Shown piece by piece: positions 14,682 to 53,624 of a stretch of 64,000 nucleotides of DNA. The stretch lies in the NCBI GenBank assembly GCA_905250025.1, contig CAJNOJ010000294.1, forward strand, positions 3,033 through 67,032. Direction: 5' to 3'. The notes under the pieces are model-generated. The model made no database searches. It was not told the origin of the DNA and worked only from the letters and a program-made list of their open reading frames with translations. Numbering within the stretch: the first letter of the stretch is position 1; every line of letters begins with the position of its first letter. A program made the translations under genes and the position numbers. This DNA is from Adineta ricciae. Taxonomy: Eukaryota > Rotifera > Eurotatoria > Adinetida > Adinetidae.

Positions 14682-14682
14682 N
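14682..14682. other. Single N at the junction of a 2.5-kb direct duplication
   Basis: Left flank ends within the dioxygenase coding sequence; right flank restarts at the equivalent of 12174. A lone N is how some scaffolders mark contigs with a negative (overlapping) gap estimate. Confidence 0.85.
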
Positions 14683-15075
14683 GGATCCGAGTATGGGATT
14701 GTGCGACCTGGGTATTACACATTTTCACAATGGCAACTGCAAGAAACTGATGAAATCAGTGATACCTCTGAATTCAACAAGAAATTCTCCTCTTCGTCTA
14801 ACTGGTCGACATTTTCTTGCACTCATTCCACAAATATCACAATCAAACCAGCCTCGAAGAAAATGCGTCGTTTTTGCATCACATAATATTCGTAGTGATA
14901 TATGATATATCTGTCCAAATTGCGATGTACCTCTGTGTATCGTTGATTCCTTCGGAGACTACCATACAAAGATGAACTACTAATGACTGCTTGAGACAAA
15001 AATGTTTTTTTTTTGAAGAAATATCATTCAAAAAACTTCGATTTTCGCAAAAAAAGCCGGGACTGAAAAGGTTAA
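14683..15075 (+). pseudogene. piggyBac C-terminal remnant, copy 2
   Basis: Same fragment as 12184-12565, more decayed: CVVCAS is CVVFAS and the frame is interrupted by TGA near 14902. The terminal sequence GCCGGGACTGAAAAGG is immediately followed by TTAA (15072-15075), a clean piggyBac boundary. Confidence 0.75.
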
Positions 15076-15589
15076 TGAATGTTCCTTGATCCATTCTTTT
15101 CGTATTCTTGCCTTTTGCAACTGTTTGATTTAACATCAAATTGAGCACATGGCAGACTTACGTAAATGAGAAGAAGATGTGCATCGGTGATGACAGTTGA
15201 CAAAGTTAAAGATCTGGCATGATCGTTGACTAGTGTGCGAAAACAATCTTCCTTCTGGTGATTACATGTTGATGTATTATTTTTCGTAGGATATGCTGAG
15301 TTAGAAACGAACTTGTTTAAGTGAGATTTTAAAAAAAATAACATGATTTTGACAATATAATTAAACAATATGCAGAATCATAGTGATCTTCTAGTGCGTA
15401 GTTTCGCCTGCGCTGTGTAACGTGATGATTGCATCTAACGTTTTCATCATACATCCTATGAATTCGTTACTGATAAAGAGATAATAGTAAAGCGAACACA
15501 CTCGTTTTTTTCTTGCCGTGGTAACGCACGTGTAATGTGACTCGTTGTTGATAAGATGCAAATTATTCATCTTATCATGACTTTCGCAT

Positions 15590-16385
15590 CGGCATCTCCG
15601 TTGACTCTCGATGGTTTATCCAAGTTTCTATCGATTGCTTGATAGAGATAGAGCTGCTTATACATTCGCAGGGCTCGATTTGGCTGATCGGTTGGTTAGT
15701 GATCTACTTAGGCGAGGTCTTACTGCTCATGAAATCACTGACAGTGAAGAAAAACAGTGAAATGCTTACATCGGATCATTCATCGCATTCTCGTGACTGT
15801 ATACGGTACTACCTATGACTGATCGCTAGTGATACTGGGTATCAGCTAGTCAAACAAGTTTGCGGTCAATGTCAAGGCAGTGGCTTTGCTCAAATATCCG
15901 GTGGTCTCAGTTGGTACGAGTTTCTGAAAAAAAAACCCGGAAAACCAAGAATATGTGCATCTCTACAACAGTGTTATGACCTGTCTGTCAGTTTATACAG
16001 GTGATAAATTAATAAATGATGTAGACTTTGGTCGTTTCGGAACGCTATTGGAGCTGGGTGGTAATCGTTGTACTTTCCTCGCTCAGATTCATTAATACTA
16101 TGAAAGCATTCGAAAGGGATTCGTATTCGATTTGCCACAATGTATCGCCGTAGTGAAGAATGGAGATGAAAATCGTTTATCGTCGAACATGCCATATTTT
16201 CGGATGGTACGATGAGTAATTGGCAAATACGTGCATTTGATATCGGAATGGCTGCTTACGGTACTGCTCGAGCACGAACAGAGCAAGAGTATTAGGTCTT
16301 AGTTGAAAAAGCCGGATTTCAAGTAAAAAAGCACTATCCAATTCAAGCACTCGACTCGATCATTGAAGCTGTTCTCATAAAATGA
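15590..16385 (+). pseudogene. COMT-like O-methyltransferase pseudogene, copy 2
   Basis: This copy retains more of the N-terminal region than copy 1 (about 15590-15750, reading DLADRLVSDLLRRGLTAHEI without the stops of copy 1). It then loses about 100 bp of the dimerisation domain at 15755. The SAM-site region (LLELGG around 16045) and C-terminal YPIQ and IIEAVL are present but frameshifted and interrupted by stops (for example TAG at about 16291). Both copies are dead, by partly different lesions. Confidence 0.7.
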
Positions 16386-16505
16386 ATGTTAACGATTAGT
16401 ATTAATAAAACGGATACGAGAATGATCGGTATATGTAGCATTTTTGCTTTGTTTTCTGTTTTATCTATAGGATAGATCTTGTTTTGATTATGCTTTTAGA
16501 TATTC

Positions 16506-17667
16506 ATGTCGTCTGAAGAATCAGTTTACGTACAACTAGGCCCACGAAAATGGAAACTAGGCGGTGAATATTTGAAATTGATGGAACCATGCAATCAATG
16601 TTTGGAAGCTGAAGATGTAGGTTTAGCATTGAGAAATCAATTAGATGAAAAAGGCTATATCTATTTGAAACATGTCATACCAGAAGACGATGTACTAAAA
16701 GCGAGAGCGACAGGTAAAATGGCATCTGATTTTGCAAAAATAGAACTAGTCTACCTTGTTTCAGTTCTTGAATACATTCAAAATCTAAATGATACCGGCT
16801 TACTAGAGAAGCCAGTATTCTCGTCATCGTACATCGATGGCATTCTGTCACGTGGTTGCGATGTGGGATGCGTTCCTTTTATGGAAGGAAGCAACCCAAT
16901 CACTACTCATCCTGCCGTTTCAGCGATCATCGAAAATCCGAAATTGTATCAGATCTTCACTAACATATTTCACGGCGTACGTCCTATAACGTTTGGTTAT
17001 AAATGGTTGCGAGGTATGCATCAAGGTGGTAATACTGGTTGTCACATGGATCGAGTCTACATGAACCGTGGCTCGTCACAATTGTTAACATGTTGGATCC
17101 CATTGGATAATCTGACATTGGATATGAGTGTACTAGCAGTTCTAGAAGGTAGTCATCGAATGGATAGACCAGATGAGAGTGGGTATACAAAATTACAAAA
17201 TACGTATGCAAACATGGATGTCGATAGAGATAAACTACAAGGAACTGGATGGTTTACACAAGATCCAATGGAGTTCTATCAACTGAATGACGTGTCAAAA
17301 ACCGAGGACACATCTGCACCTGTTTGGAAAACAACCGGTTAGTTCCCAGGACGCGATATAAGCAGAAATCGTTCATTCATTTCTTGTAGCTTTTTCCGCT
17401 GGTGATATTCTGATCTTCACAATGCGTACCATTCATATGTCATCGATTAATTTAACGAATAGATTACGTCTTTCATGTGATACACGTTGGCAGCCCGCAA
17501 ATGAACCAGTCGATCCTAGATTTATTCAACAGGACAAAAAAATGCCATTGGGCCATGCGGAGACAAAATTTGGTCTCTATGCAAAGAGTGATGATAATAT
17601 TGAAGACGGAAAAACGACTATGGAACACTGGCGAGAAAAATGGGGCTTTCTTATAAACTCATCCTGA
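16506..17667 (+). CDS. Phytanoyl-CoA dioxygenase family protein (Fe(II)/2-oxoglutarate oxygenase)
   Basis: Predicted non-haem Fe(II)/2-oxoglutarate-dependent oxygenase; the substrate cannot be told. Two exons, 16506-17337 and 17390-17667, are separated by a 52-bp GT-AG intron and encode 369 aa. The HxD iron ligands are in TGCHMDRVYM (about residue 179). After the intron, FSAGDILIFT-MRTIHMS and LRLSCDTRWQP provide the distal His and the 2-oxoglutarate-binding Arg, as in the PhyH family. No signal peptide. It lies about 120 bp downstream of an O-methyltransferase remnant in the same orientation, a pairing reminiscent of bacterial or fungal secondary metabolism. The intron may have been gained after transfer. 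Confidence 0.88.
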
Positions 17668-18308
17668 AGATGTGCTTCTTGAAAACTTTATTGAATTACT
17701 TTTAATTTCTCTGTATTGACGATTAAAATGTCATTTCCTAGGTCAGAAGATATCTACGTCAGTTTTCTTGAATATTTTTCTCAATCATAAATTGATGAAC
17801 ATTGTTCCATGCTCTTGTAGAGATTTTAATTAATTCATAAAACCTTCAGTAATAAATCATAGAGAAGCAAAGTCCAACAAAAAGTGAGGTCTCACTGATC
17901 TTGTGATGTGATATCTGCCTTTCTTTTGAATAACTCATTGTCAGATTAGTTTATAATTAATTCTTGGCTATTTTATTTATTGCGCAGTTAATACACATAT
18001 AATCTAGTCAAATTTTCATCGATGAAGCTAATGATTAGTTATTCCTATAGTATCTCTTTGTTCATTGGGTATTTGATCCATATTTAATATTTTCTTACAC
18101 TTGAATACTGAGAAAATGATAATATACTCGGCATTTCCAACAAAAAATACCTCATTAACTCGCGTGTCGAGAACGTCGCTGAAACAGATAATTTTGTTCT
18201 ACGACTTCTAAGGAGGTGACAAAAAAAGAATACACCAACGCTCATTTACTTTTGATTCTTCGCACGTAAACTTATTTGCTGATTTATCTCACTCAGACAA
18301 CTCTATCG
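17668..18308. other. Intergenic, no gene recognised
   Basis: About 640 AT-rich bases between the dioxygenase and the GPCR. No conserved motif was recognised. Confidence 0.5.
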
Positions 18309-19226
18309 ATGAACAATTCCTCAACAATAGACATCGAAACATGGTTTATTCCTCATGACATCATTATGATCATTATCCTCTCTTTCGCTATCCTACTTGG
18401 TATCTTCTTTTTACTTATCATTATTCTTGATCAAACATCTCACACCCTACCAATGATATTAACAGCTAATTCATGTTTAACACAAATCTGTTTCGCAATT
18501 GTTCTACTTCTCATGACAATCTTCATGTTAGAAAATGATTTAAAGCAACGCTATTATTACGATCTCTATTGCATCATTCGTGGTTACTTAAGTTATGCCA
18601 CATGCACAGCAATGAATTATTCTTTTCTATTACAAGCGATCTATCGATATATTTTAGTTATTTACCCACTTAACGTATGCTGGCAATCGATCAAAATTCA
18701 ACTATTACTCATTGCTGCGACATGGCTGTTTTCGTATCTCTATCCACTAGCATTTGTCTTCACGAACGATATTACGTATAATGTGAATAATCAGTTGTGT
18801 CAAATTCCATTGCGTCTTTCGTTTCCGCTTCTTTTCGTCATTTCGAACGGTTATCTTGGTCCTGTATTGATAATTCAATTGATCTATTTGAAATTGGTTC
18901 GACATGTGAAACAAATTAGTAGAAACGTCATTACAACAAGAAATAATCTACCTCGTTTACGAAGGGAATTGAAAATGGTACGTCGAATAGTAACAATAAC
19001 GACGATCTTAGTTGTACTTGGTCTACCCTATACATCTTTTCTATTTATATCGTTTTTTACCGAACCAGTAAAGTATTACTATCGAATATCGGCGATCTTC
19101 ACGAATCCATCGCTGATATTCATCATGATTGCGCTATTTCAATTTACGGAATCGTTGAAATTGTTCATATTGCGAAAAATGAACATACGAACAGAAACAG
19201 TTATACCAACTATAGAATTGAGATAA
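18309..19226 (+). CDS. Rhodopsin-like orphan GPCR (7TM)
   Basis: Predicted class A-like G-protein-coupled receptor of 305 aa, intronless. I place the start at the ATG at 18309, which gives MNNSST and a short extracellular tail with one N-glycosylation site. Seven hydrophobic segments are visible. The third ends in YRYILVIYP (a DRY-like position), and the sixth follows the basic LRRELKMVRR segment with LVVLGLPYTSFLFISF. The ligand is unknown; this subfamily is abundant in bdelloids. A paralogue lies convergently at 19897-20802. The 3' third recurs as a fragment at 44670-44947, which begins at an N. Confidence 0.85.
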   Translation: MNNSSTIDIETWFIPHDIIMIIILSFAILLGIFFLLIIILDQTSHTLPMILTANSCLTQICFAIVLLLMTIFMLENDLKQRYYYDLYCIIRGYLSYATCTAMNYSFLLQAIYRYILVIYPLNVCWQSIKIQLLLIAATWLFSYLYPLAFVFTNDITYNVNNQLCQIPLRLSFPLLFVISNGYLGPVLIIQLIYLKLVRHVKQISRNVITTRNNLPRLRRELKMVRRIVTITTILVVLGLPYTSFLFISFFTEPVKYYYRISAIFTNPSLIFIMIALFQFTESLKLFILRKMNIRTETVIPTIELR

Positions 19227-19538
19227 TATATTTACCAACTATTCAGATCGAACGCACCAAGGGTAACCCAAGAACATTTCTTTCGTGTATTGGCAAATTG
19301 TAAACGAATATACGTCATTTTTCTACTTCTTGCTTCGTCGTAAATATACCTAGAAAGTCTAGATGTGAAAACAGTCAACGCTAAGATTGCACTGTGGAGG
19401 TGCGTTTCTTCTTATTGGCTTGTTCATTCAACCCTATCCACATACTACATTCCCTATTTAATCGACTGCATATGCACAGAAATTTTTTTTTTTAAGTTTC
19501 ACTTTCTCACTACATTCACACCTTCCAGTGAGAGCAAC

Positions 19539-19658
19539 ATGACCGGCAAAAGGATCATTATCTATTTGGCTCTCGTCGCTTCGATCTTTGTCATCAATTG
19601 CCAAGGCAAACCTACCGATGAGAATGAATTGAAAAGCGCTATAATAAGTACCTCCTGA
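19539..19658 (+). CDS. Short secreted peptide, 39 aa (copy A)
   Basis: MTGKRIII is followed by a hydrophobic core LALVASIFVINC and a likely cleavage after QG, leaving a mature peptide of about 16 residues beginning KPTDENELK. An AATAAA polyadenylation-like signal follows at about 19680. The counterpart at 45259-45378 preserves the frame and signal peptide with two amino-acid changes. No family recognised. It could be a peptide hormone or effector, or the first exon of a longer gene, although no good splice donor was found. Confidence 0.5.
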   Translation: MTGKRIIIYLALVASIFVINCQGKPTDENELKSAIISTS

Positions 19659-19896
19659 GATCTTGATAGTATTTGTGAGAAATAAAGTGAGTCCTCTTCT
19701 GTTATGGAAATATCGACAATATCCGTTGAACGTTTTCTTTTCTATTTAGAAAACGAACAATACACTAAAACTTTTCGTATGAAAAGAGCTTTTTTTGCTA
19801 TAATTTTAACATCACTTATTTTCTTTAAACCAAACGTAGGCGCAGAATCATTGACAAATAAAAGGCAATGGCATAAAATATTTCTACTTGTCACTC

Positions 19897-20802
19897 TCAT
19901 GTTCTTCCTGCAGCAGCAGCAACGACATTTGGTTGCTGTCGAAATCTTCTTACTAACGACTTTTTCAGCAGATCGGTAAATTGAAGTAAAGCAATCAGTG
20001 CTATCAATATCGATGCATCGGTGAATATGAAAGCAATACGAAAATGATACTTCGGTGGCGTGGTGAAAAATGAGATGAAAACAAAGATGCCATAGGGAAC
20101 ACCGATTGTCACGATTATATTCAGAAGCATGATTATACGTTGTACCATTTTCAATTCTCGCTGTACGCGGATCAATGTATGAACAATCATCGTATTATGA
20201 CCTAATTCTCTTATATGTAGAATTAGTTTAAAATATATGAACATAGTCATCGACACAGGAATGAGATAAATACAAAAGACTCCATAAAATAACGAAAAAG
20301 ATAATCCAAGAGGTAACTGACATATTTGATTGTCAGCATTATAAGTTATGTTATGAAGGAATATGAATACCACTGGATACGTCAAAGAGAAGATCCATGT
20401 GATACAGATAAATAGAGCTTGACATTTGAATGTTTGCCAGTACAAATTAGTACGATAGACCACTGTAATATATCGATAGAGAGCTTGTAATGAAAACGAA
20501 AACATGAATTCAGCAGATACTGCGTAGTTCAGATAGGCTCGAAGAACGCAAAGTGAATCTTCAGAGTAAACTTGTTTCAGATCGTTTTCTAATGTAAATA
20601 AACTTAAACTTAACGATACACATCCTAAGACCAGTGTTGTTAAACAAGTATTTGCGACTAACATCATCGAGATCGTATGACACGTCTTATGCAGAACGAT
20701 AATAAATAGGAAAAGAGTAGCAAGAATGATAATTAGTACTGTGCATATAATCATGAGAATATCCGTAGGAATAAACCAGAATTCGGTTGAGGTTAGGTTC
20801 AT
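19897..20802 (-). CDS. Rhodopsin-like orphan GPCR (7TM), copy A
   Basis: 301-aa predicted 7TM receptor on the minus strand, intronless, a paralogue of the GPCR at 18309. I choose the ATG at 20802 (MNLTSTEFWF) because the right-hand copy (46518) starts there and longer upstream frames are not conserved. Shared landmarks are WFIPTDILM at the N-terminus, YRYITVVY after TM3, RVQRELKMVQRI before TM6 and VTIGVPYGIFVFISFF in TM6. The C-terminus ends in a short Gln/Ala-rich tail encoded by a GCT repeat that is one codon longer than in copy B. Tail-to-tail with 18309. Confidence 0.85.
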   Translation of the reverse strand: MNLTSTEFWFIPTDILMIICTVLIIILATLFLFIIVLHKTCHTISMMLVANTCLTTLVLGCVSLSLSLFTLENDLKQVYSEDSLCVLRAYLNYAVSAEFMFSFSLQALYRYITVVYRTNLYWQTFKCQALFICITWIFSLTYPVVFIFLHNITYNADNQICQLPLGLSFSLFYGVFCIYLIPVSMTMFIYFKLILHIRELGHNTMIVHTLIRVQRELKMVQRIIMLLNIIVTIGVPYGIFVFISFFTTPPKYHFRIAFIFTDASILIALIALLQFTDLLKKSLVRRFRQQPNVVAAAAGRT

Positions 20803-22156
20803 ATTTGAAAAAGAAAAAAAAACTCTTTCAGAGTACCAAGCACGTCGCTTTTTTTCTGTTAAAAGATAGAGAGTGTGCGTATTTTTGGACTTCAATTATA
20901 ATAAGAAAAAAAAATCTCAATTAGCATGAATACTCCTCCTTTGTTTTTCTTTCCATTTTAAAAAGGATTATAATTAGTCTTTTTTTGCCTGGTTTTGATT
21001 GGAATGAAAAATGCTGCAAGCTGAATTAGTAATGCGGGATGAATGCAAAAATCAACGACCGTTTTGCTCGCAAAGTATATTTCATTATCGTATATACATC
21101 TTACACTTTTATGGAGATGATGGGAAATGTGCTTAGGAATGAGTGCATAAAATGAAGTGTGGTATTACATCATTATTAGCAGGTGCTGTTAAGTGCCTGC
21201 AACTATCATATAAACGAAGAAAAGATAATCATTAATGAAGTATGACGAATACAAGGTGACTTAGAGCGTTTTCCTCTCAACTCAATGTTCGTTGTAATGT
21301 CTGAATTGTTTACTGATATACTCATTCTCTGCCGCAGGTGCTTCATTTCTTTCATATGTTGCATTTTGTGTGTATGCATTTATTTATATTATCAATGTAC
21401 CGAGCACATTAGTGAATAGCTATTTCTGATATTCTCTGGTGAACATCGCAGAAATGTTAAACGATATAAACATAAAAGAGATATATGCTACAATGACGAT
21501 CAGATCAAAAATAGATTCTTTTGATCAGCTATGCCATATATGTTAAGCGTTCCGTTGAATACTCGCATTTTAGATAACTTACACAAATGGTAACTCTATG
21601 GATGACGATAAAAGAAAAACGGAGAAGTGGTAGTGCTCTTTATCGTAAATGTGATGACGTTGAGAACCGCTAAAGTAGACAATGAACATACTTAAAATTT
21701 TCAATATAGAAAAGAAAAACTTCAATGCACTTTTTCATACCGCACCCATTCATCTTTCCAGTTCACTATTTTTTATCTATATTTTTCTTACGATAAAGTG
21801 CATCACTTTGGACGTTCTACTTTAGTTTTAATAGTATAGAAATTCTCTGGGAAGGCAAGTTTGACTACGATTCAACTTTGCACTATTCTAAACGACCTGT
21901 CATCTAAACTTTAGTAGTCATATTTTCTCTGTGCTGAAGCATTAGTAGTTTACACTTAATGAACTTTTCTTAATTATAATTAGCTTCGAGTGTCTCTTGA
22001 GGTGTGTCGTATTTATTGATCTGTCGTTCTCTGTTTTGTATTCACTTTTTTTCATAGAAACAAATTCGATTGTAAGGCGATTCAACTAAGGTGAGAAACA
22101 AAGAGAATAGTTGTCGTTCCATTATTTATTGTCAACGAATCAAGGAATTCTATACA
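20803..22156. other. Intergenic, 1.35 kb
   Basis: No gene recognised. The stretch is the shared upstream region of a minus-strand GPCR and a plus-strand secreted protein, so it should contain two promoters. It is collinear with 46519-47853 with several indels. A TTTATTTATATTATCAATG block near 21380 is partly deleted in the other copy. Confidence 0.5.
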
Positions 22157-23078: not shown

Positions 23079-23303
23079 ACTGCTTTATTATTTCATATAC
23101 TAAAACTAATTAATAAAGACAATTTGTCAATGCTATTCTTGATTGCAAGAGTGAAATAATATAGTTTTGTATTTGCTGAAGAAATGTGACAGTATCATCG
23201 TGTCTTCTTTCGAAAATTCTTATCTTGAATATAAAAAAGATACTAACGTAAGAGAAAGGCCAAAACTGCGAAGTCATCATTCACTTTTTAGTCATATTTC
23301 AGT

Positions 23304-25898: not shown

Positions 25899-26787
25899 AT
25901 GGAACACGCTTCTTCCTCTTATGTACTACTACAAGGAAGGAGACGCGCAGAATGGTTGTATAAGTCGAATACGGATCCATGGTCTTCCGAGGCTGCTCGA
26001 TGGAGTTGTTATTCGGATGTGGAATCAGCGATGATTGAAGAAGCGTTTCAGAAAAAAAGCAAGTGAAGCTCTTCTCTACAGCTACCACGTCGATTTCAAA
26101 CACTTTGTTCAAATCTCGAACTATGATTTCAATAAACAACGACCTGTAAAAAGACTTCATGGAAGGGAGAACGAAGTACAACTACGTGAAGGCAGATTCT
26201 TTTCTAGCATTATATCACCTGCAACAGCGTTCGTCGACAGTGAAAATGTATCCAACTTCAATGATATGGTTCGAAATCATTTCAACTGTAAATCTTTTAT
26301 GGACTGCTACAGAACTAATGGTTGCTTCTGGTTAGAGAGAGCAGTGGAAGGTCTGATTATAGAAGGAAAGAAAGTGGGAAGGCAACAAGAAGCAGAGTGG
26401 ATGGCACCACAGCTTCTTAATGTGAAAGGAGAAAGCGAAGAAAAAGCACTCGCTGTCTGCGCCCGTTTATACACGATGGAAACGTTCTTGTATCGAGCAG
26501 TTTAAACGGTCTATTGGTAAAAAAGAATGGTTGTTTCCAGCATTTACTTCAACGACTCGTTCCATCAGTTTGGCAATGTATTATTTGAAATTGATGTGAA
26601 TTACTTGGGTACGGATATTTCAGAACACTCATTTTACCCTGAAGAAGAAGAGGTTCTACTCCGAAACGGCTTCTGGTTCCAGATTGATTCATGCTCATTC
26701 GATGCTAAAAAGGCAAAATGGATTATACATCTCAGTGAAGGAGTGGTCGTACGCGTCGTCGACGCGATTAGACCAACCAATAAGTGA
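25899..26787 (+). pseudogene. WWE-ADP-ribosyltransferase pseudogene, copy A
   Basis: Broken version of the intact gene at 51924-52994. Lesions seen: (1) an extra A in a run at about 26047-26055 shifts the frame within the WWE domain; (2) a deletion of roughly 170 bp at about 26490 removes the start of the catalytic domain, including the Arg of the R-S-E triad; (3) a 13-bp deletion at about 26571 between repeated CAGTTTGG words. The WWE N-terminus (WLYKSNTDPW, WSCYSDVE) and the EEEEVLL glutamates at the C-terminus remain recognisable. Confidence 0.88.
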
Positions 26788-28035
26788 TTTTTCTATGTTC
26801 CTTGTATCCGAAGTATGATTTCTAGTTTCACATATTCTCTTCACAAAAAATGTAAAACCCAAAATAAAGAACTGTCACCCAGTAAAAACCTTATACCTTC
26901 TATGTGATATGAAGAATTCACTCATAACCAGTTCATAGTTTTCGGTATTGAATTTGATGTGAATACGAATTCAAAGAATGAAGTATCTGGTATTAATTGT
27001 GGGTTTTCGATGTATCAAATTGAAGTTAGTTATTTGTGTTGCAATTAAATGTGTGCACGGTTCGCGTACCAAACCAAATCTGCGAAAATAATTTGTTACA
27101 GTGATCACTATATGGGTCAATGTAATCGGCTGTGAGAATTGAAATCCGATATAACTGAGGTGTTTTTTAGAAACGACTCTGTAGGCCATGCATCAGCATC
27201 GATCAATGCTGGACTGCCACGACAAGCTGTCATCTACAAATTATAGTAAGAATTCATTGGTACACACACTTGCCGCATCGATATCTCGGACAAACTTTGG
27301 ATCATACATGAGATCTCAAGGAATTCTTCAAACAAGTATTTTCTTTTGTTTCAATAGAAAGCTAAGTAAACCGTGTGTTTTTAATACTTTCTATCAGAAG
27401 AGAATGTCTCCATTGGTAAAAGACTTCTCGCCAAAACCAATAGTAGCGAGAGAATCATCAGCGTTTGGCACAGAAATTATATTGTGAGTATGACAGTGCA
27501 TCATTATCATCCATTTTATAGGGGATGGAATCTAGCCTAGATAAAAGTAATGTTTATCAAGTAATATCGAATTCAATGACGCGACTACTTACCACTCTGT
27601 GTTATGATGTTAATACACCGGAGAATACATATGAGGTGAATTTTATTGCAATTATTTCGCTATACTGACAGAGCTCTCTGTTTTTTGCAGTCGACGTGGA
27701 TGTTCTGCGGCGCATACATTTTTATTTTACTAAAAAAATGTATCAAGGAAATATTCGCCTATGAAGAACCCATTTGTGTATTGTCGCTATAGCCTCAGTG
27801 GTGACTAGGATTAAATCAGAATCTATTCTATAGTATGTCGAAGCAAAGAAAAGCGTATGAGTACTTCATCTTCGTTGCATAAATTTTCAACTATTTTTGG
27901 TTTTTTCAGCATCTGTATTTATTGATGAATATAAATGAATAATGGTAGAGAGAGATCCACGAGAGAAACGAAAAGTCAATGATTTAGCACATAAAATAAA
28001 AATCAGTCAAACATGTCAAAGTATAAACATGCCTA
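26788..28035. other. Intergenic, 1.25 kb
   Basis: No gene recognised. Small frames (for example 27188-27487) are not conserved as frames in copy B. About 165 bp (roughly 27300-27465) is absent from copy B, and copy B has an extra block of about 220 bp at 53865-54090. Confidence 0.5.
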
Positions 28036-30385: not shown

Positions 30386-31630
30386 TTATTCGCTTCCCTC
30401 AGACACTGATCGATCCTCATTTGTAGTCATGTAGCCCATCTTAATCTTGCCACCGACTTCATAATCTTCAAATTGAGATGCGTGACCTAATTTTTGTCCA
30501 TGTTCAACACCCTGTCTAGCGAACTTCATGACGATCTCTTCGTATGAACTTCTATTCTTCAACCAATCAGACCAACTTTGCATTTTGTCCCATAATTGTA
30601 AACCGTGAAAAGCAGCTTGACTCGTAGCGCTAGCGGTGTGTGGTCGAAATCCAGCTAATGCATCACCGACAAGTACTACCCTTCCATTGTAGTAACACGC
30701 TTGCGTCGCCAGAACATCACTAACGGCTTGAACAAACGGTACTTGTGTCGCATTTACTAGTTCGATAAATTGAGGTGGAAGATTGCTATTCGCATATTGT
30801 TTCAAATCTTCCCATACTTTGTGGGCAACTTTACCGCGGGGCACTGTCCAATGATGTTTTCTTCCATGACAATCAGTAAGAATTTCGGACGGATCTGCGT
30901 AATTGCAATACCAAACCCAATTAATTAATCGAAGTCCTTGATCTAATGCGCCATTTTGACCCGGGATAGTATAGCAAGCAAATTGAATTCCGGATGCGTG
31001 GAAAAAAGTAACACCATCGATGAATGTTGATGTAAGTGATTCGGATATATCTGATTCAGGAACTGTTCCTCGCCAAACAACGTAACCAACATAATTTCGT
31101 TCTATAGTCAGATCGATTAGCGTTCGAATACGACTTGATGCTCCGTCGGCTGCGATTAAAATATCACCTTTTATCGACTTCTTTTCATTTTTCTGCTCAT
31201 AAAAGATTGTTACTGAATCATCATCGACTTCCATGTTTGTCACGTTTGCATCATAATCATAGGCTACCTTTTCGCCTGTGTCGTCTGGTAATTGACAGTA
31301 CGCATTCTTGATTCCATCGAAGTTTGCACGTAAAATATGATATAGTAAATCCCAACTAGTGGCTTGATGATCTGTATTTTCCCGATGTATTTCGTTACCA
31401 TAAACATCGAGGTAATGTAAGAAAGTTGGTGATATGGTCAGGTCTCGTTCCGATCTATCGAATTTTTTCATAAATAAACGAGTTTCTTCGCCAGCGAAAA
31501 TACCTGCTCCATTACCTTGAAAAAGAGGTAGAGAATTGCGTTCTAAGATGTGAACATAGTGACCAAGCCGTTTGAGAGACAATCCAACGAATAAACCCGC
31601 CAGACTTCCACCGACAACGATTATATTCAT
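30386..31630 (-). CDS. FAD-dependent aromatic-ring-type monooxygenase, copy A
   Basis: Flavoprotein monooxygenase of 414 aa, intronless, no signal peptide. The N-terminal dinucleotide fold is VVGGSLAGL with ILERN at the end of beta-2. The DG motif is in ILIAADGASSRIR (about residue 160). The second FAD contact is GRVVLVGDALAGFRPHTASATSQAA (about 315-340). The overall pattern resembles bacterial 2,6-dihydroxypyridine 3-hydroxylase-type enzymes, which use NAD(P)H and O2. The lack of introns and the bacterial/fungal-like motif set suggest horizontal acquisition. Both copies (also 56756-58000) are full length with about 8% amino-acid difference, so selection seems to keep both open. Confidence 0.88.
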   Translation of the reverse strand: MNIIVVGGSLAGLFVGLSLKRLGHYVHILERNSLPLFQGNGAGIFAGEETRLFMKKFDRSERDLTISPTFLHYLDVYGNEIHRENTDHQATSWDLLYHILRANFDGIKNAYCQLPDDTGEKVAYDYDANVTNMEVDDDSVTIFYEQKNEKKSIKGDILIAADGASSRIRTLIDLTIERNYVGYVVWRGTVPESDISESLTSTFIDGVTFFHASGIQFACYTIPGQNGALDQGLRLINWVWYCNYADPSEILTDCHGRKHHWTVPRGKVAHKVWEDLKQYANSNLPPQFIELVNATQVPFVQAVSDVLATQACYYNGRVVLVGDALAGFRPHTASATSQAAFHGLQLWDKMQSWSDWLKNRSSYEEIVMKFARQGVEHGQKLGHASQFEDYEVGGKIKMGYMTTNEDRSVSEGSE

Positions 31631-31958
31631 TCTTATATAAAACTTGTTTGGTTAGCTATTGAAGTTCACCTTGTAATTATAATCAACATTGGATTTCACT
31701 TTCACTTAGAAACAAATCAGTCTAATATTGACATAGAGTTATGCTTTATCTCGATGGACATACACTTGACTATGCACGTGCCAGCCGATGTGGTAGAAGA
31801 AAGAGGTTGAAAAGTGTATCGACGATGTCCATATGTTTATTTAAAGAGAAATACAGAACTGCTTGCTTTTTGACAGAAAAGAAAAAAAACGATGTGTTTG
31901 TTATTGGTGTAGCATCGAGGAATAGAAACACTATACAGTCACACATATATATTCAATC
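31631..31958. other. Intergenic between two minus-strand genes
   Basis: Non-coding; probable promoter of the FAD monooxygenase and 3' region of the ART-TPR gene. No specific signal recognised. Confidence 0.4.
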
Positions 31959-38394: not shown

Positions 38395-38999
38395 CAGAAT
38401 CAAATGCTATTGATTGTTTTGCGCAATATCCTTCTTACCGTATAAATAGAGATTGGCCTTCAATTAAAAATGACTTGACTATGTTCTTCTTTTGGAAATC
38501 TTCATTTTCTGAATCATAAATGTGTTTTGCTCACATACAGAGAGAGAAAGATGACTCATGTAACTTCTTGGTTTCTCATCAGTGTATTATCCGTAACGCG
38601 TAGAAAAAATATATTTATTCTTCAGGGAAAGAAACGAGCTATGGTTGAATGATCGTAACGATGAAAAAAAGAGAGGGTATGGAGTTTGGGCGTTCGATTG
38701 TCTACTTATTTTGAAAGCAGAAATGGTCACGCGACCGAATACAATTCAAATCGAATTGGCGGAAAATACTTTCTGTCATTTTTTGAATAATCAACGAGGA
38801 TTAGTTAATTATATTGATGTAAATCAAACTAGTTCAGATCTCGGATCGAGTTGCTGAATCATAGAAATTGTTCCTGAACAGCTAGATGTGAACGACATAG
38901 CAAAGATCCTCAATCCTATCGTTGTATATGCCATAGAATCTCTACTACCATTGGCAGAAGTATTACTTTGTTAGATACCATGATTTACAACTTGCATTA
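38395..38999. other. Intergenic, 600 bp
   Basis: A short frame at 38645-38857 has protein-like composition, but I could not place it in a family. It may be the decayed N-terminus of the adjacent ADP-ribosyltransferase remnant. Confidence 0.35.
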
Positions 39000-39450
39000 T
39001 GTGAGACCTTCGAAGAGCCAGCTATTATGGTCTCTATGCATGTGAATAACATAGTATTCATCGTAGTCTTTATTCCATGCTCAACTTTATTCTCAACGAG
39101 AATTTGTGATCGTATTTCTGATTGCACTGGTTAAACTACCATGTTTGCCCCCGTCTGCTCTTTGGAGAGGAGTAACGAAAGATTTGAGTTTACAGTTCCC
39201 ACCTGGCACTTTCGTAATTTGGTGGGCGTCCTCATCATGTACGATCTCGTTGTCTATCCGAAAGAACAATATGTGTATATATCTCGGCGAAGCTGGCAAG
39301 CGAACATTGTTCTCTGTGAAGATGATCAATAATCGGGTGATACGTGGTCATTCACACTTCGTTATTGAAGATGAAGTACTTCTTCTACTACCAAGTACAC
39401 AGATGATCATTCAATCACAATTGAGACAGAATTCAGATCGTACCAAATGA
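39000..39450 (+). pseudogene. Arginine-specific mono-ADP-ribosyltransferase (ART-type) pseudogene
   Basis: Frame 39106-39450 shows the ART catalytic core: LWRGV (Arg of the triad), FPPGTFVIWWASSSCT (Ser-x-Ser position, here SSC), TLFSVKMINNRVIRGHSHF, then IEDEVLLLL (E-x-E). Upstream, SLYSMLNFILNEN at about 39068-39110 continues the family pattern in another frame, showing a frameshift, and further upstream stops occur. A disabled member of the vertebrate-like ART family expanded in bdelloids. An additional frameshift may lie near 39280, where the spacing between LSIRKNN and YLGEAG looks stretched. Confidence 0.7.
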
Positions 39451-39704
39451 AATCTTTCTGTTCATCGATTCGACAAAAACTGCTTTTTTAAGATGTGCAT
39501 CTGTATCCAATTCATTGAGTTAAACTGTCATTCGACTGACGGACCCGTTATGCGACCATATCAATTCAACATTCGAATCATCGTTCCAATTGTTGTCCGC
39601 ATGTTCTGCAGTAGCTACGCATTTTATGTCAGTGCGCCATACTCGTCTTTCTCAAAAATCCAGTGTAGATTAATGTTTCGATTTGCACATAGGTAGTTAT
39701 CCTG
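39451..39704. other. Intergenic
   Basis: Non-coding stretch between the ART remnant and a small minus-strand frame. Nothing recognised. Confidence 0.4.
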
Positions 39705-39950
39705 TCAAGACCCTGTTTCTTCAAACATTTGAATACACCACCAATTGGATATATATGACGGCGATGTGAGCATGAATTGAAGTGGTCCAAAGTTGGTTTT
39801 AAATGAGTCTGTTGAGTTCTGAGCGCGATCTTTTGCCAGATTGTCATTCATTAGCGTAGCAATTTCAATACCAACAACACTTTTCTGGTACACATCGGAG
39901 TGTACAACTTGCCAAACAATACAATACAGTAAAATCAGTTTCACTTTCAT
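39705..39950 (-). CDS. Small predicted secreted protein, 81 aa
   Basis: The ATG at 39950 gives MKVKLILLYCIVWQVVHS, a convincing signal peptide, followed by about 63 residues with few cysteines (one Cys, in WWCIQMF). No family recognised. Unique in the window, with no conserved partner to support it. It could be a first exon: several GT sites lie near the end. Confidence 0.35.
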   Translation of the reverse strand: MKVKLILLYCIVWQVVHSDVYQKSVVGIEIATLMNDNLAKDRAQNSTDSFKTNFGPLQFMLTSPSYISNWWCIQMFEETGS

Positions 39951-40889
39951 TCGTATAATAAACGTTAGTTCTTTTGACACTTCTTTTACACGATAAAGTG
40001 TCTCTGAGAGTCAACCATCTTTTATATATCCTATAATCGTTGCTAGGTCACGTGTTTTATCGGATTTTGCGAACATTCTGCTCACACCGTACAAAATCGA
40101 GCTACTACGGATGCTACCGGTAGTTCTTTTCTGCTTGTGTATGTGCATCGTTTTCATCTTGTCTTCACAATATATACATACGAATTTAATTACTCTCTAG
40201 ATATGTGGTCTGATGGTGTGGTTTTTTTACACAAATATATGCGCAAGATAAGACGTTTTGATTCAGTCTACTTCCTTTGTTGTATGTTGGAAGAAATGCT
40301 ATTAAGAGTTATTCTTTAGGTCGTAAAATGTCCGCTTTAATGATAGGTATAAATAAACTATAAAACGAACACAAGTATTGAAATAATAGTATAGTATTTT
40401 TTGAGCACAAATCTTTTGCCTCATCTAAATCATAACTAGATCTTCTCTATCTAACGTTTTACTCAGATTGAGTATATTGGTATAAGTCAGCTGTTGTATG
40501 AATGAGTTTATTTTCCATAATGCATCTATATGATATACACACTCCCAAACTAAATATACGAGAAATTATGGTGAAATATATACTGATCGGTGTGTGAAAA
40601 TCTCTATTGTTTATTCGTATTCAATGAAGTATAAAAAGTGCATTGTTTCGTACTGTTTCAGCCTTTCAGTTTCTCTTTCAAGAATATACATCTCATGAAA
40701 AATGCATATTGAAAACTCCGGACACGACATCGCCGAGAAGTAAATTTGTTTTTAAACGGCAAACGATACATCTCGGAAAACTATGTTTACCCTTCGAATA
40801 AGAGAGAAGGATGTTTATATCCTCATTCTTCTTATTAATGAAGACTTGAAACAAGAAAAGCAAACGTTCACACATAGTATTCGAAATAA
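39951..40889. other. Intergenic, 940 bp
   Basis: No gene recognised; several short frames are probably chance. Presumed promoter region of the channel gene downstream, with a TATAAAAAG box near 40630-40640. Confidence 0.45.
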
Positions 40890-45378: not shown

Positions 45379-45615
45379 GATCTTGATAGGTTTGTGAGAA
45401 ATAAAGTAAGTCCTCTTCTGTTATGGAAATATCGACAATATCCGTTAAACGTTTTTTTTTCTCTTGAGAAAACGAACGATACACTAAAACTTTTCGTATG
45501 AAAAGACCTTTTTTTGCTATAATTTTAACATCACTTATTTTCTTTAAACCGAACGTAGGCGTACGATCATTGACAAATAAAAAGCAATGGCATAAAATAT
45601 TTCTACTCGTCACTC

Positions 45616-46518: not shown

Positions 46519-47853
46519 ATTTTTAAAAAAAACTCTTTCAGAGTACCAAGCACGTCGCTTTTTTTTCTGTCAAAAGACAGAAAGTGTGCGTATTTTTGGA
46601 CTTCAATTATAATAAGAAAAAATCTCAATTAGTATGAATACTCCTCCTTTGTTTTTCTTTTCATTTTTAAAAAGGATTATAATTAGTCTTTTTTGCCTGC
46701 TTTTGATTGGAAAGAAAAATGCTGCAAGCTGAATTACTAATGCAGGATGAATGAAAAAATCAACGACCGTTTTGCTCGCAAAGTATATTTCATTATCGTA
46801 TATATATCTTGCACTTCTAGGGAGATGATGGGAAATGCGTTTAGGAAAATAAATATAAGTATGATTTAGGAATGAGTGCATAAAATGAAGTGTGGTATTA
46901 CATCATCATTAGCACGTGCTGTTAAGTGCCTGCAACTATCATATAAACGAAGAAGAGATAATAATTAATGAAGCCTGACGGATATAAAATGACTTAGAGC
47001 GTCTTTCTTTCAACTCAATGTTCACTGTAATGTCTGAATTGTTTACTGATATACTCATTCCCTGCCGAAAGGGTTTCATTTCTTTCATATGTTGTATTTT
47101 GTGTGTGCATTTATTTATATTATCAATAAATTCGAATAGCTATTTCTGATATTCTCTGGTGAACATTGCAGAAATGTTAAACGATATAAACATAAAAGAG
47201 ATATATGCTACAATGATGGTCAGATCAAAAATAGATTCTTTTGATCAGCTATGCCATATATGTGAAGCGTTCCGTTGAATACTCTCATTTTAGATAACCT
47301 ACACAAATGGTTACTCTATGGATGATGATGCAGTAGAAACGGAGAAGTGGTAGTGCTCTTTATCGTAAACGTGATGACGTTGAGAGCCGCTAAAGTAGAC
47401 AATGAACACACTTAAAATTTTCAAAACAGAAAAGAAAAATTTCAATGCACTTTTTCACACCACCCATTCATCCTTCCAGTTCACGATAAAGTGCATCACT
47501 TTGGATGTTCTACTTTAGTTTTACGTAATAGTATAGAACTTCTCTGGGAAGGCAAGTTTAACTTTGATTCAACTTTGCACTATTCTAAACGACTTGTCAT
47601 CTAAACTTTAGTAGTCATATTTTCTCTGTAGTGAATCATTAGTAGTTTACACTTAACGAACTTTTCTTCATTATTATTAGTTTCGAGTGTCTCTTGAGGT
47701 GTGTCGTATTTATTGATCTGTCGTTCTCTGTTTTGTATTCATTTTTTTCATAGAAACAAACTCGATCGTAGGGCGATTCAACTAAGGTGAGAAACAAAGA
47801 GAATAGTTGTCGTTCCTTAATTTATTTTCAAACGCATCAAAGAATTCTATACA
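46519..47853. other. Intergenic, 1.3 kb
   Basis: Counterpart of 20803-22156. No gene recognised. Contains a short AAATAAATATAAGTATGATTTAGG insertion-like difference near 46847-46870 relative to copy A. Confidence 0.5.
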
Positions 47854-48769
47854 ATGAACTCTCTCCGAGTCCTTCGTTATTATGTAAATCATAGCTTAAT
47901 AATTTTATTGATACTTATGATGGATACCGGCGTTTCGATTTCTGTCAATTTACTTTCCAACGTAGTATATAAAGCAACTAATATTAATCGAACATTTTCC
48001 AACTTCAGCTGTGCACAATGTGCATGTGCTGCTTTACTGGACGCTGCTAGTGGATGGAATTGTATCACAAACAATAGTACATGTCAAGTAATCAAAAATT
48101 ATTCTTCTACCGATGATGGCTTAATGATATTATCTAACGCAAGTTTTTTCTACCTGCAACTCCCACCGCAGGCAGCGTATACAAAAAATGTAACAACAGT
48201 CTCAACAACAACAACAACAACAACAACAACAACGGTAACAATGACATGTAAGTAATTCCTATTGTTAAACATTGTTTTTTTAATTTGTTATATATACTCC
48301 AGTTCCATCATGTACGACGATTCCTGCAAGTAATCTGTTGCAAATGAATGGCGCAACTCCATGGACTCTCTTTTCATTCAATTACACAGCAGTGACCTCA
48401 GGACCTACGCTCATGTTTGGGTTCAAAAATGGTCCAGCAGATACAAACTACTTGGACGATGTATCTGTCGTACTTGCTAGTGCGCCTCTTATTCAACTGT
48501 TGCAGAATCCTGCCTTCGAAAACTCATCATCAACACCAACTGGTTGGATAACATCGTGTCAATCAGGATGTGGTGCTGGAAATCAAGGTCAAATAACAAG
48601 CAGTAGCTGCTATTCTGGTAACTGTTACATTGATCGTTGCCAAAATCCTAATTATGATTTTCTCGCTCAATCCTTTCCGGCCACAATTGGTTATAACTAC
48701 ATAATCTCATTTCGACTCTACCAGACGGGAGGTGCCGCTGGCAAATTCTATGCCAATATTTATGATTGA
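47854..48769 (+). CDS. Secreted Thr-rich protein with lectin-like region, copy B
   Basis: Exons 47854-48247 and 48303-48769 (55-bp intron at the same position as copy A). Same signal peptide, Cys-rich module and C-terminal DDVS carbohydrate-binding-type segments. The linker is a pure Thr run encoded by ACA repeats, shorter than in copy A and lacking its Ser codons. The start at 47854 is the ATG of MNSLRVL; the longer upstream frame of copy A is not conserved. Confidence 0.75.
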
Positions 48770-48994
48770 ACTGTTTTATTATTTCATATACTAAAACTAA
48801 TTAATAAAGACAATCTCTCAGCGCTATTCTTGATTGCAAGAGTGAAATGTTGTAGTTTTGTATTTGCTGAAGAAATGTGACAGTATCGTCGTATCTTCTT
48901 TCGAAAATTCTTATCTCGAATATAAAAAAGATACTAATGTAAGAGAAAGACCAAAACTGCGAAGTAATCATTCGCTTTTTAGTCATATTTCAGT

Positions 48995-49530
48995 ATGCCA
49001 CTCTATGTTATTGAACATCCAAAGGTACTACTAACCAAGCAACAAAAGGAGAGAGTATGCAAAGAAATCACACACATTCATTGCACTGTAACTGGTGCTT
49101 TACCTGCACTTGTCAACGTTGTATTTCATTCAACTGATGATAACGTAAGTACAAATGTAGCAGATTTACTACTAGAATTGTTTTTCTGCTTGAAAATGAA
49201 AAGGTTGAATTCATCAATAATAAACCTCGCCATAAAGCACGAATTATTGGTCATATCCGAGCTGGTCGATCGGCCGAGTCAAAGGAATCTTTGATTTCTC
49301 AAATAAATAATGCATGGATGACGATTGTGGGTGAACGTTGCCATCTTATCGGCGTAAACGATGTAAATCCCGAAAATGCTGCTGAAGATGGTATCATGCT
49401 TCCTGCAGCAGGAGAAGAAATGGAATGGCTAGAGAGAAATGAGAAGATCTTTGAAGAGCGCGCCGAGAAAGGCGAGGAAACTTCACGAGATTTTCTAGCT
49501 GATCTAAAGGCCATGCAATCGAAATTGTAA
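48995..49530 (+). CDS. Tautomerase-superfamily protein, cis-CaaD-like (copy B)
   Basis: Exons 48995-49144 and 49204-49530 with a 59-bp intron, 158 aa. Pro1, His28 and the RAGR pair are conserved with copy A. A handful of amino-acid changes (for example Thr11 to Val, Asn to His before HCTV) lie outside the active-site positions. Both copies look functional. Confidence 0.8.
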
Positions 49531-50023
49531 CATCTTACTCTTTCCGCTCACATGAGTCGAGCGCATATTCTTCTTGTAAGAATATTGAATGTGGACATTT
49601 TTCTCTTTAAATAAATGCGTTCGCTCGTTCATCCGATCTGTTTCGAAATCTGTAACGAGTCGACAATGATTAGTTGTGATTATTTTTTTGTTATATTGAG
49701 TACATTTTCTAAAATGCTTTACGATAAAAACTCTTTAATGAATCAACATCTATCTGTTTTTCATCTATTTCTTAGGTCTGAAAATGCAAGCTATATGAAC
49801 ACTACTCTCTATTGTATGAAAATCAGGTTGATGAGTTGGACAAAAAGAAATCATTCATCTTTACTATTATTTATATTTTTTGCGAATAGAAAAAAACTTC
49901 GAAATCGCTTACAATCGATTACTGCAAGCCGATATTTACTTCAATTGGATGTGTTATGTTCAACAATAGAACTGTCAGTTTGATCTTTTTAAATTGTTTC
50001 AGTTGTTGGTATTGTAATATTTC
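49531..50023. other. Intergenic or decayed 5' region
   Basis: No intact gene recognised; short frames here share no family I know. Confidence 0.4.
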
Positions 50024-51082
50024 ATGGATTATCATCACTTATGTGCGATTCTTCTCAATCTTCAAGATCGTCTTGCAAATGATGATCGAAAGCGTCTTCA
50101 TTTTTACCTTGGGAATGATATTCCACGAAGGTTTCGAGATGGTCCATCTCTTAGTGGAACACTCAGCCTGATGGATTCCCTTTTTGATCAGGATAAAATC
50201 AATGAAGACGATTTAACCCATCTTATCAACGCTTTGGAACAAATTCGTCGTTTGGATGCCGTAAAATTATTGAAAGGTTTGCTTTTCTCCTTAGTACATT
50301 TTCATCGAAATCAATGACTATGGATTAAATGAATCTGTGCAAAGTCTATCAGTCATAATACTACCATTCACCGATCAACTTCTTCACGATGATAAGGTTG
50401 AAGAAGATAAAGAAGCTTTAAAATCTGGTAAGTTAATGTTCTTTTAGTTCTCATTGCAGAGAAAGATATTCAAACAAGCGTTGAAAATCTCGATGATTTC
50501 TCTTTAAAGCGAAAGAAGAAACCAGCACTATGAATATATTTTAGATTAGTTCTTTGTGCCGTTATGATCATGTTGAATATTTTCCTTTGGAGTTGAAATC
50601 GAACCAGAGACAAATGGTTCAATCAGAATCGACAGGAAATTGTTATTGGAAACATTTCATGTCGAAGTTTAACAGTGGATCAACACGGATTTCTCTATGT
50701 TTCAGATCACGAAAGAAATAAAGTGAGAAGATGGAAACTCGGAGAAAAAGGAAGAAGAACATTGACCGCAGGTGGTAATGGCCAAGGAAACCAATTGAAT
50801 CTACTCGAAAAGCCTACTTTTATTTTCGTTGATACCAATCAATCGATTTAGATATCAGATCATGCGAATCATCGCGTTATGAAATAGTTTAAGGCTGCGA
50901 AGAAAGAGATCATTGTCGCTGAAGGAGATGAGAGATGTGAAGTCGTTGTTGGCGGATATAGAAGAGGCAGTCGGAAAAATCGATTCAATAATCCTGATGA
51001 TTTATCAATGGATCTTGAAGGAAACTGTTACATTTCGGACACTGAGAATCATCGAATCGTTCTTGTTGATTCGATTTCATGA
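50024..51082 (+). pseudogene. Death-effector-like domain plus NHL-repeat gene, decayed (copy B)
   Basis: The first exon-like block (50024-50277) encodes about 85 residues with a death-effector-domain pattern: LLNLQDRLANDDRKRLHFYLG, GTLSLMDSLFDQDKI, LINALEQIRRLDAVKLL, including an RxDxxxLL-type end. A short acidic segment and NHL blades follow: LTVDQHGFLYVSDHERNKVRRW, TAGGNGQGNQL, IFVDTNQSI, then a stop, VVVGGYRRGS in another frame, and LSMDLEGNCYISDTENHRIV. In-frame stops near 50849 and 50888 and frameshifts show decay. DED and NHL in one gene is a typical bdelloid-style domain combination; a signalling-scaffold role is inferred. Copy A has lost the DED exon and the first blades. Confidence 0.6.
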
Positions 51083-51923
51083 TTTGAACCCCAATTTAAG
51101 AACTTTTTCTTTTCATATAATATTTTTACAAGTAAAATTGACGAAGCCTAGTCGAATCGTGCCTCATCTTAATTACAATATGGAAGCACATTGAATGGTG
51201 CTCTTGTTGAGCAGAAAATCAAGGGATACCTGGAAAAGATGAGGGTGACCTGACGTGAGTGAAATTTCACCCACGCGGTTTCATGGCAAAAAAAGAACGA
51301 CAAGCTTTTCATATCGCCTTGTTAAGTGTAGTCAAACGTGGATATAGTATTAAAAGACAAGTAAGGAGTGAGTTAGACCGATGTGGATAAACTAGATGCA
51401 AACTTTGGTGAAATTTATTCAGATCTCCTTTGTACTTGTTGACATTACCGAAGTCATGCCCGATGTTCTCGATGATCTAAAGCATAGACATCCGTTCAGA
51501 AACAGCTTTCAAATATGGTCTTGACTTGAAGAGAGTTAAAGTACGGACAAAACGTTACGAGAAAAATGTTTAAAACTTCTCGGTGCTTCAGTATGCCGAA
51601 AAGGAACGCTTTACTAAAATCTTTTACGGTCCTTCATAAATTCATTTGCACAATAACTCCTGAAAAAGCGATTTGACTGTGATGAAACTCTCAATGGCGT
51701 ACTATTACATCAAAATTTCACTGGAGTTCGAAAGCTTTTTAACTTATAGTTTATCTCACAAAATACGATGTAATAAACCATAAATTCGCTTCGCATCCAT
51801 TTTATTATCTTTAAGAATATAAAACTATTCGTTGATAAGAGTTCTTTCTTCTTTTATATATCTCCTGAATAGGGCTCACAAGTGGTTCTATTGTATACGA
51901 TTTGCTCCTTTATTGAGTGAATA
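51083..51923. other. Intergenic, 840 bp
   Basis: No gene recognised. Contains about 75 bp (near 51670-51750) not found in copy A. Probable promoter region of the WWE-ART gene. Confidence 0.4.
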
Positions 51924-52994
51924 ATGGCACACGCTGCTTCCTCTCATGTACCACTACAAAGATGGAGACGCACAGAATGGTTGTATAAGTCGAATACGGA
52001 TCCATGGTCTTCCGAGGCTGCTCAATGGAGTTGTTATTCGGATGTGGAAGCAGCGATGATTGAAGAAGCGTTTCAGAAAAAAGCAAGTGAAGCTCTTCTC
52101 GACAGCTACCACGTCGATTTCAAACACTTTGTTCAAATCTCGAACGATGATTTCAATAAACAACGACCTGTAAAAAGACTTCATGGAAGGGAGAACGAAG
52201 TACGACTACGTGAAGGCAGATTCTTTTCTAGCATTATATCACCTGCAACAGCGTTCGTCGAAAGTACAAATGTATCCAACTTCAATGATATGGTTCGAAA
52301 TCATTTCAACTGTAAATCTTTTATGGACTGCTACAGAACTAATGGTTGCTTCTGGATAGAGAGAGCAGTGGAAGGTCTGGTTATAGAAGGAAAGAAAATG
52401 GGAAGACAACAAGAAGCAGAGTGGATGGCACAACAGCTTCTTAATGTGAAAGGAGAAAGCGAAGAAAAGGCACTCGCTGTCTGCGTCCGTTTATACACTA
52501 TGGAAACGTTCTTGTATAAAAAGATCAATGAATTTCTCCGTTTATTGGGGGAAGATGCACACATTGATTTTGTACGAAGCAAAGTACCTACATTTGGACC
52601 GTTCATACATCTTTTTCATAGCCTGTTAGGGCGCAATAAAGAAAAATTGACTGTTTATCGTGGTGCCAATCTGTCCAATCAGTTGATCGAGCAGTTTAAA
52701 CGGTCTATTGGCAAAAAACAATGGTTATTTCCAGCATTTACTTCAACGAGTCGTTCCGTCAGTTTGGCCGAACAGTTTGGCAATGTATTGTTTGAAATTG
52801 ATATAAATTACTTGGGTACGGATATTTCAGAATACTCATTTTACCCTGAAGAAGAAGAGGTTCTACTCCGAAACGGCTTCTGGTTTCAGATTGATTCATG
52901 CTCATTCGATGCTAAAAAGGCAAAGTGGATTATACATCTCAGTGAAGGACTGGTCGTACGCGTTGTCGACGCGATTAGACCAACCAATAAGTGA
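51924..52994 (+). CDS. WWE domain-ADP-ribosyltransferase, intact (copy B)
   Basis: 356 aa, single exon. An N-terminal WWE domain (WLYKSNTDPWSSEAAQWSCY to about residue 85), known to bind poly- or iso-ADP-ribose, precedes an ART catalytic domain. The R-S-E triad is LTVYRGA (Arg), FTSTSRS (Ser-Thr-Ser) and PEEEEVLL (E-x-E), which predicts arginine-type mono-ADP-ribosylation using NAD+. No signal peptide or membrane segment, so a cytosolic or nuclear role is likely, unlike the secreted ARTs of vertebrates. Copy A is inactivated by three lesions. It lies directly downstream of a DED/NHL remnant on the same strand. Confidence 0.88.
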   Translation: MAHAASSHVPLQRWRRTEWLYKSNTDPWSSEAAQWSCYSDVEAAMIEEAFQKKASEALLDSYHVDFKHFVQISNDDFNKQRPVKRLHGRENEVRLREGRFFSSIISPATAFVESTNVSNFNDMVRNHFNCKSFMDCYRTNGCFWIERAVEGLVIEGKKMGRQQEAEWMAQQLLNVKGESEEKALAVCVRLYTMETFLYKKINEFLRLLGEDAHIDFVRSKVPTFGPFIHLFHSLLGRNKEKLTVYRGANLSNQLIEQFKRSIGKKQWLFPAFTSTSRSVSLAEQFGNVLFEIDINYLGTDISEYSFYPEEEEVLLRNGFWFQIDSCSFDAKKAKWIIHLSEGLVVRVVDAIRPTNK

Positions 52995-53235
52995 GTTTTT
53001 ATGCTCCTTGTATCTGAAGTATAATTTCTAGTTCCACATATTCTCTTCACATAAATGTTAAACTCAAAATAAAGAACTGTCACCCAGTAAAAACCTTACA
53101 CCTTCTATGTGATATGAAGAATTCACTCATAACCAGTTCATAGTTTTCGGTAATGAATTTGATGTGAATACGAATTCAAAGAATGAAGTATGTGGTATTA
53201 ATTGTGGCTTTTCGATGTATCAAATTGAAGTTAGT

Positions 53236-53624
53236 TATTTGTGTTGCAATTAAATGTGTGCACGGTTCGCGTACCAAACCAAATCTGCGAAAATAATTTG
53301 TTACAGTGATCACTATATGGGTCAATGTAATCGGCTGAGAGAATTGAAGTCCGGTGTAACTAAGGTATTTTTTTGGAAACGACTCTGTAGGTCATGCATC
53401 AGCATCGATCAATGTTGTACTGTTGCGACNTATTTGTGTTGCAATTAAATGTGTGCACGGTTCGCGTACCAAACCAAATCTGCGAAAATAATTTGTTACA
53501 GTGATCACTATATGGGTCAATGTAATCGGCTGAGAGAATTGAAGTCCGGTGTAACTAAGGTATTTTTTTGGAAACGACTCTGTAGGTCATGCATCAGCAT
53601 CGATCAATGTTGTACTGTTGCGAC
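53236..53624. repeat. 194-bp exact direct duplication separated by one N (53430)
   Basis: Bases 53236-53429 and 53431-53624 appear identical, with a single N between. Copy A (around 27030-27223) has the segment only once. A perfect duplicate around an N is what un-merged overlapping contig ends look like. Confidence 0.9.

Follow-up and report, generated by a model that had tools for sequence, protein, structure and literature searches.

Genes and direct duplications on the scaffold

The window, by which we mean the whole analyzed stretch of 64,000 nucleotides, corresponds to C294:3033-67032 (contig CAJNOJ010000294.1) within the 115,396-bp scaffold C294 of Adineta ricciae, and coordinates are given below in window numbering unless prefixed C294:. 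The scaffold opens with a run of 3,032 Ns, directly followed by base 1 of the window. Six of the ten frames submitted to Pfam found a match: two hAT dimerisation matches and DUF659 in the first 10 kb of the window, an O-methyltransferase domain in the frame at 13400, FAD-binding domains at 30389-31651, and ADP-ribosyltransferase domains together with a WWE domain in the frame at 51921. No Pfam domain was assigned to the frames at 16500, 18270, 35388, and 44130, and a tRNA scan detected no tRNA genes. Fragments of hAT-like transposases and short repeats occupy 1428-10173, near the left end of C294.

The assembly to which the scaffold belongs, ARIC003 (GCA_905250025.1), comprises 135.6 Mb in 4,302 sequences, with an N50 of 283.8 kb at rank 129, a GC content of 35.5%, and 39% of core genes duplicated (PMC7943196, Table 1). 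Its DNA came from about 200 animals, all descendants of one individual, and was whole-genome amplified. For comparison with the whole of C294 we used the first 100 kb each of scaffolds C200 (196 kb) and C260 (142 kb), which were chosen by number before their sequence was known, while C294 was given by the finding itself and is not a random choice; the GC content is 35.6-36.5% across these stretches. Genome searches covered 130.46 Mb in 1033 scaffolds, the 1033rd being 10,113 bp long, and small scaffolds were apparently left out.

Self-comparison of the whole 115-kb scaffold revealed four large direct duplications, each consisting of a copy A, a single N, and a copy B. In duplication 1, on the forward strand, A (12174-14681) and B (14683-17197) lie on either side of N14682 and share blocks that are 96.1% and 91.8% identical. 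In duplication 2, also on the forward strand, A (18949-44668) and B (44670-68942, reaching beyond the window end at 64000) are separated by N44669. Duplication 3 (A, 69024-81948; B, 81950-94846) and duplication 4 (A, 95142-102761; B, 102763-110543) lie farther to the right on the scaffold. All four dovetail, with A running up to the base before the N and B starting from the base after it, and the homology of B stops once the end of A has been reached. The window contains five single Ns, at 6164, 10836, 14682, 44669, and 53430, and two further ones, 81949 and 102762, stand to the right of it on C294. The first-pass annotation had pointed out that the Ns at 14682, 44669, and 53430 separate the end of one sequence from the restart of a copy, and the self-comparison agrees with this to the base. 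Its wider claim, that every direct duplication in the window starts at a single N, holds for these three and has to be qualified for the others. One exception is the forward-strand pair 1-334 and 6376-6709, which is 98.2% identical over 334 bp and whose first 121 bp exactly equal 6376-6496; the pair adjoins no single N in the window, and its base 1 follows the 3,032-N run. The other exceptions are four direct repeats, each 49-70 bp long, situated away from the Ns (527/578, 671/5201, 1056/1094, and 4815/4853).

Copy A of duplication 2 is about 25.7 kb long, including 1,961 bp at 38703-40663, a haplotype indel that copy B lacks. Some 300 bp within this stretch match eight other places in the genome at 65-70%, and no target-site duplication is evident by eye at its borders. 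Elsewhere in the assembly, positions C248:26051 and C248:81598 are 91% identical over 3.3 kb, on the same strand and 55 kb apart, and are perhaps a further tandem haplotype pair.

Association of the copies with single Ns

The association was measured by a flank test, in which the 250 bases to the right of an N were sought upstream and the 250 bases to its left downstream, counting only matches in the same stretch with E values of 1e-8 or better that come within 25 bases of the junction. Both flanks are copied across at 10 of the 14 single Ns in the C294, C200, and C260 stretches, and at one more, C260:61920, only the right flank is copied. Neither flank is copied at the remaining three, C294:9196 (window 6164), C294:13868 (window 10836), and C260:67052. 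As a control, 300 positions were drawn at random from these stretches; both flanks were copied at a single one of them and one flank at 168, the latter figure arising by construction, as any position inside a copied stretch gives one copied flank. Counted as blocks of at least 200 bp at 80% identity or more, second copies account for 44,693 of 112,357 bases in C294, 23,025 of 99,999 in C200, and 19,664 of 98,027 in C260.

One possibility is that these are real tandem segmental duplications, the junctions of which by chance remained unassembled and so each carry an N. The order of unique sequence, A, B, and unique sequence is the same as that of a true tandem duplication and to this extent agrees with such an origin. 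A real tandem should, however, run as continuous sequence through its junction; each of the four large junctions of C294 instead carries an N, as does the one in the first 100 kb of C200. An assembly gap between the copies is expected of heterotype false duplication, and the single N lies exactly at each of the four large C294 junctions.

The two Ns of the window without a duplication have surroundings of another kind, and no copy across either of them was found within scaffold C294. N6164 lies between two dispersed repeats, and of 52 other matches there, 9 stop at the base directly to its left and 11 start at the base directly to its right. N10836 stands, according to the genome search, where a dispersed repeat of some 940 bp has its left end; with 40 of 622 candidates scored, 29 of 59 other matches around it begin exactly at 10837 and 6 more within 5 bases. 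Since many genome matches start or stop at the bases adjoining them, both Ns mark the edges of such dispersed repeats, where contigs also commonly end. The repeat itself (10837-11780) occurs in at least 39 further places at 84-94% identity.

N53430 falls inside copy B of duplication 2, and on the forward strand (53236-53624) it is flanked by 53236-53429 and 53431-53624, which are 194 bp long and 100% identical, so that the suffix of the left piece is exactly the prefix of the right one. In copy A the 194-bp sequence occurs a single time and uninterrupted, within 26488-27297. A contig boundary flanked by the same sequence on either side is the mark of homotype false duplication, and N53430 probably joins two overlapping contigs of the same haplotype that were left unmerged. 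A constant overlap of 194 bp was considered for C294:56462 and C260:63474 and was rejected, because the second overlap is 208 bp at 98.6%, with its mismatches confined to the 14 bases that follow the join.

Recurring lengths at the junctions and tiling of the pieces

Exactly 121 identical bases followed by a difference are found to the right of the N at 6 of the 11 junctions that have a right-flank copy (C294:47701, C294:84981, C200:52693, C260:52199, C260:61920, and C260:78345). The runs at the others measure 20 (C294:17714), 200 (C294:105794), 37 (C260:25555), 102 (C294:56462), and 0 (C260:63474). To the left of the N, the distance from the start of the last identical block of at least 60 bases to the N is exactly 221 bases at 5 of the 8 junctions examined and 123, 199, and 216 bases at the other three. 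Within the window, N44669 has both lengths, with 121 bases identical to the sequence from 18949 and then a mismatch on its right and a block beginning 221 bp before it on its left; N14682, with both flanks copied across, has the left block at 221 bp and an identical run of 20 bp on the right. Both appear to be contig joins between opposite haplotypes.

The recurrence of fixed lengths across junctions suggests that the identical run reflects a constant of the assembler. Variants are known to pile up at distance k from contig ends, which scaffolding lessens and does not remove (PMC5368935). The constant need not be a k-mer, however, because in a string-graph assembler it equals the read length (PMC5368935). 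The length of 221 would be the sum of 121 and 100, the additional 100 bases beyond the 121-mer perhaps coming from an extension or gap-filling step. The assembly section of PMC7943196 names SPAdes and gives 121 as the final k of the “maximum haplotig” set, a value that it does not attach to the reference assemblies. It mentions SSPACE and GapCloser in connection with two Rotaria species and does not detail how A. ricciae was assembled. The programs used, and the one that wrote the N, are matters of inference.

The same length bears on the possibility of real tandem duplication raised above. Nine A/B alignment blocks of C294 contain 1,628 identical runs, of which eight reach 121 bases and one is exactly 121 long; this one is taken to be the junction C294:84981 at the start of one block. 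As identical runs of this length are rare at about 7% divergence, a true junction would give the assembler little reason to break, and their presence at 6 of 11 junctions is not expected from real tandems.

It also bears on masking, i.e. the idea that the single Ns hide sequence. Masking might account for stretches that are entirely N, namely the first 3,032 bases of C294 and C260:32404-34370, and many single Ns, in contrast, adjoin an exact contig edge as judged by the 121-bp sign. On the strength of these edges masking was set aside as the cause of the single Ns, and we regard it as having a negligible chance of being correct. The second of the all-N stretches, 1,967 bases long, lies inside a duplicated stretch and is perhaps a sized gap or else withheld sequence.

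Successive duplications tile along C294 (INTERLEAVING): the distance from the end of copy B of duplication 2 to the start of copy A of duplication 3 is 81 bp, and that from the end of copy B of duplication 3 to the start of copy A of duplication 4 is 295 bp. Read as haplotypes, the pieces would so be strung in the order 1, 2, 1, 2, with small gaps within each haplotype. On C260, a piece that ends at 52198 shares an exact 180-bp overlap with one that starts at 61921, although a 9,720-bp piece separates the two, an arrangement that we interpret as two neighbors of the same haplotype with a contig of the other haplotype wedged in. Neither the abutting ends at 81 and 295 bp nor the 180-bp overlap on C260 is predicted by true tandem duplication.

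Divergence between the copies

In eight chosen pairs of open frames the coding divergence is 3.2-5.9%, with dS of 0.077-0.146 and dN/dS of 0.12-0.48, the divergence figures being lower bounds because poorly aligned codons were trimmed from the pairs. DNA identity between A and B is 92.7% over all aligned blocks of C294. Homologues of A. ricciae that were assembled separately differ by 4.55% (PMC5916493), and an allelic heterozygosity of 5.5% has been given for the species (PMC7953838). The copies differ at the allele level, that is, as haplotypes do and as heterotype false duplication requires. All eight tested frame pairs are under purifying selection, which also suits real tandem copies. Taken together with the order of unique and copied sequence, this is what can be said for a real tandem origin, and against the N at every large junction, the 121-base runs, and the tiling of the pieces, such an origin appears very improbable.

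Bdelloids are ancestrally tetraploid (PMC5916493), which raises the question of whether homoeologous copies of ancient origin have been brought together here. Matches of 71-72% over 262-281 bp on other scaffolds might be relics of that kind, but the identity between A and B is far above theirs, and we consider it scarcely credible that the copies are homoeologues. In the genome search, an 8.5-kb stretch of copy A had, among the best candidates, one long near copy, which is copy B, and six matches of at most 170 bp.

The first-pass annotation had also stated that the Ns either cut a gene or double an exact 194 bp, and the frames bear this out along with the double at N53430. The homology of the frame from 13984 to its partner in copy B (16500-17342) stops at N14682, beyond which the first frame continues into unrelated sequence. 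Copy A has the frame 18270-19226 in full; copy B starts inside it, so that the partner there is without the 5' part.

Discussion

The large tandem duplications are almost certainly the product of false duplication of haplotypes, in which the assembly placed two alleles head to tail, as far as can be judged from the assembled letters. An assembly error in place of real tandem duplication had been proposed in the first-pass annotation, and the proposal is supported by the association of copies with Ns, the lengths of 121 and 221 bases, the interleaved tiling, and the allele-level divergence, of which the recurring 121-base length and the interleaving add to the evidence then at hand. The following course of events can be envisaged for a highly heterozygous bdelloid whose two homologous chromosomes both contributed contigs to the scaffold. 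An assembler working with a constant of 121 bases, presumably the k-mer of a de Bruijn graph, would have built the differing haplotypes as separate contigs and broken them where both haplotypes share a 121-mer. The scaffolder would then have joined a contig of haplotype 1 to an overlapping contig of haplotype 2, then to the next contig of haplotype 1, and onward. Because the haplotypes were too different (92.7% identical), the overlapping ends would have stayed unmerged, and both alleles would have been kept head to tail with a one-base N as a placeholder between them.

Several observations count against this course: 3 of the 14 single Ns are without a duplication, the lengths of 121 and 221 are not universal (6 of 11 and 5 of 8 junctions, respectively), and N14682, one of the three Ns on which the proposal was first based, has only 20 identical bases on its right. 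A published source for the rule that scaffolders insert one N per predicted overlap, which the first-pass annotation had invoked, was not found in the literature passages and listings consulted. Among the titles and abstract beginnings searched, none was found to name such a pattern for the A. ricciae assembly of 2021, which is no proof of absence. It might also be imagined that a minority of the duplications are real, with bdelloid repair after desiccation having placed both homologues in tandem on a single chromosome, an idea once drawn from linked homologues in the early A. vaga assembly, and the assembler having broken there by coincidence, a combination to which we give very little credence.

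The consequences reach beyond the locus. From 20 to 40% of the letters in the three stretches are second copies; an assembly of this kind would yield inflated gene counts, copy numbers, and synteny, and its joins cut genes. A fixed-length exact match adjoining a single N offers a simple test for such artefacts that needs no reads. Artefacts of this shape need to be recognized because linked homologues on one scaffold were once taken as evidence for the ameiotic evolution of bdelloids (PMC5916493).

The pattern on C294 is almost certainly a known phenomenon, heterotype false duplication, and not a real feature of the genome. As in the cases described before, divergent haplotype contigs are both present in the primary assembly and genes are cut or doubled (PMC8081667, PMC9516828), while those on C294 differ in that several stand in a row, alternate, have one-base gaps, and are known from sequence alone. 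The exact 194-bp double with a gap between its halves at N53430 resembles homotype false duplication at contig boundaries; the homotype doubles described in PMC8081667 are about one read long, and the double on C294 is 194 bp long. The first difference between the copies lies at an assembler-set distance from the contig start, which is reminiscent of the position-k bias of PMC5368935, although that bias is known through variant calling and the present one through the comparison of two haplotypes inside a scaffold. Within the genus, 25 homologous blocks on one scaffold, 2 of them tandem and 23 palindromes, were reported for A. vaga in 2013 and 2 tandem cases for A. ricciae in 2018, and scaffolding error was raised as a possible cause of some of these linked structures (PMC5916493). 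A. vaga is also among the species reported to have many haplotypic duplications (PMC10548655). The earlier statement that tandem alleles in an Adineta assembly were later ascribed to assembly error is right in outline (PMC5916493, PMC10548655). The linked homologous blocks of the 2013 and 2018 assemblies share with C294 the presence of homologous copies on one scaffold, some of them in tandem, but they amounted to 2 tandem cases per assembly as detected by gene blocks (PMC5916493), in contrast to the four large ones found here by DNA alignment in one 115-kb scaffold of what appears to be a later assembly.
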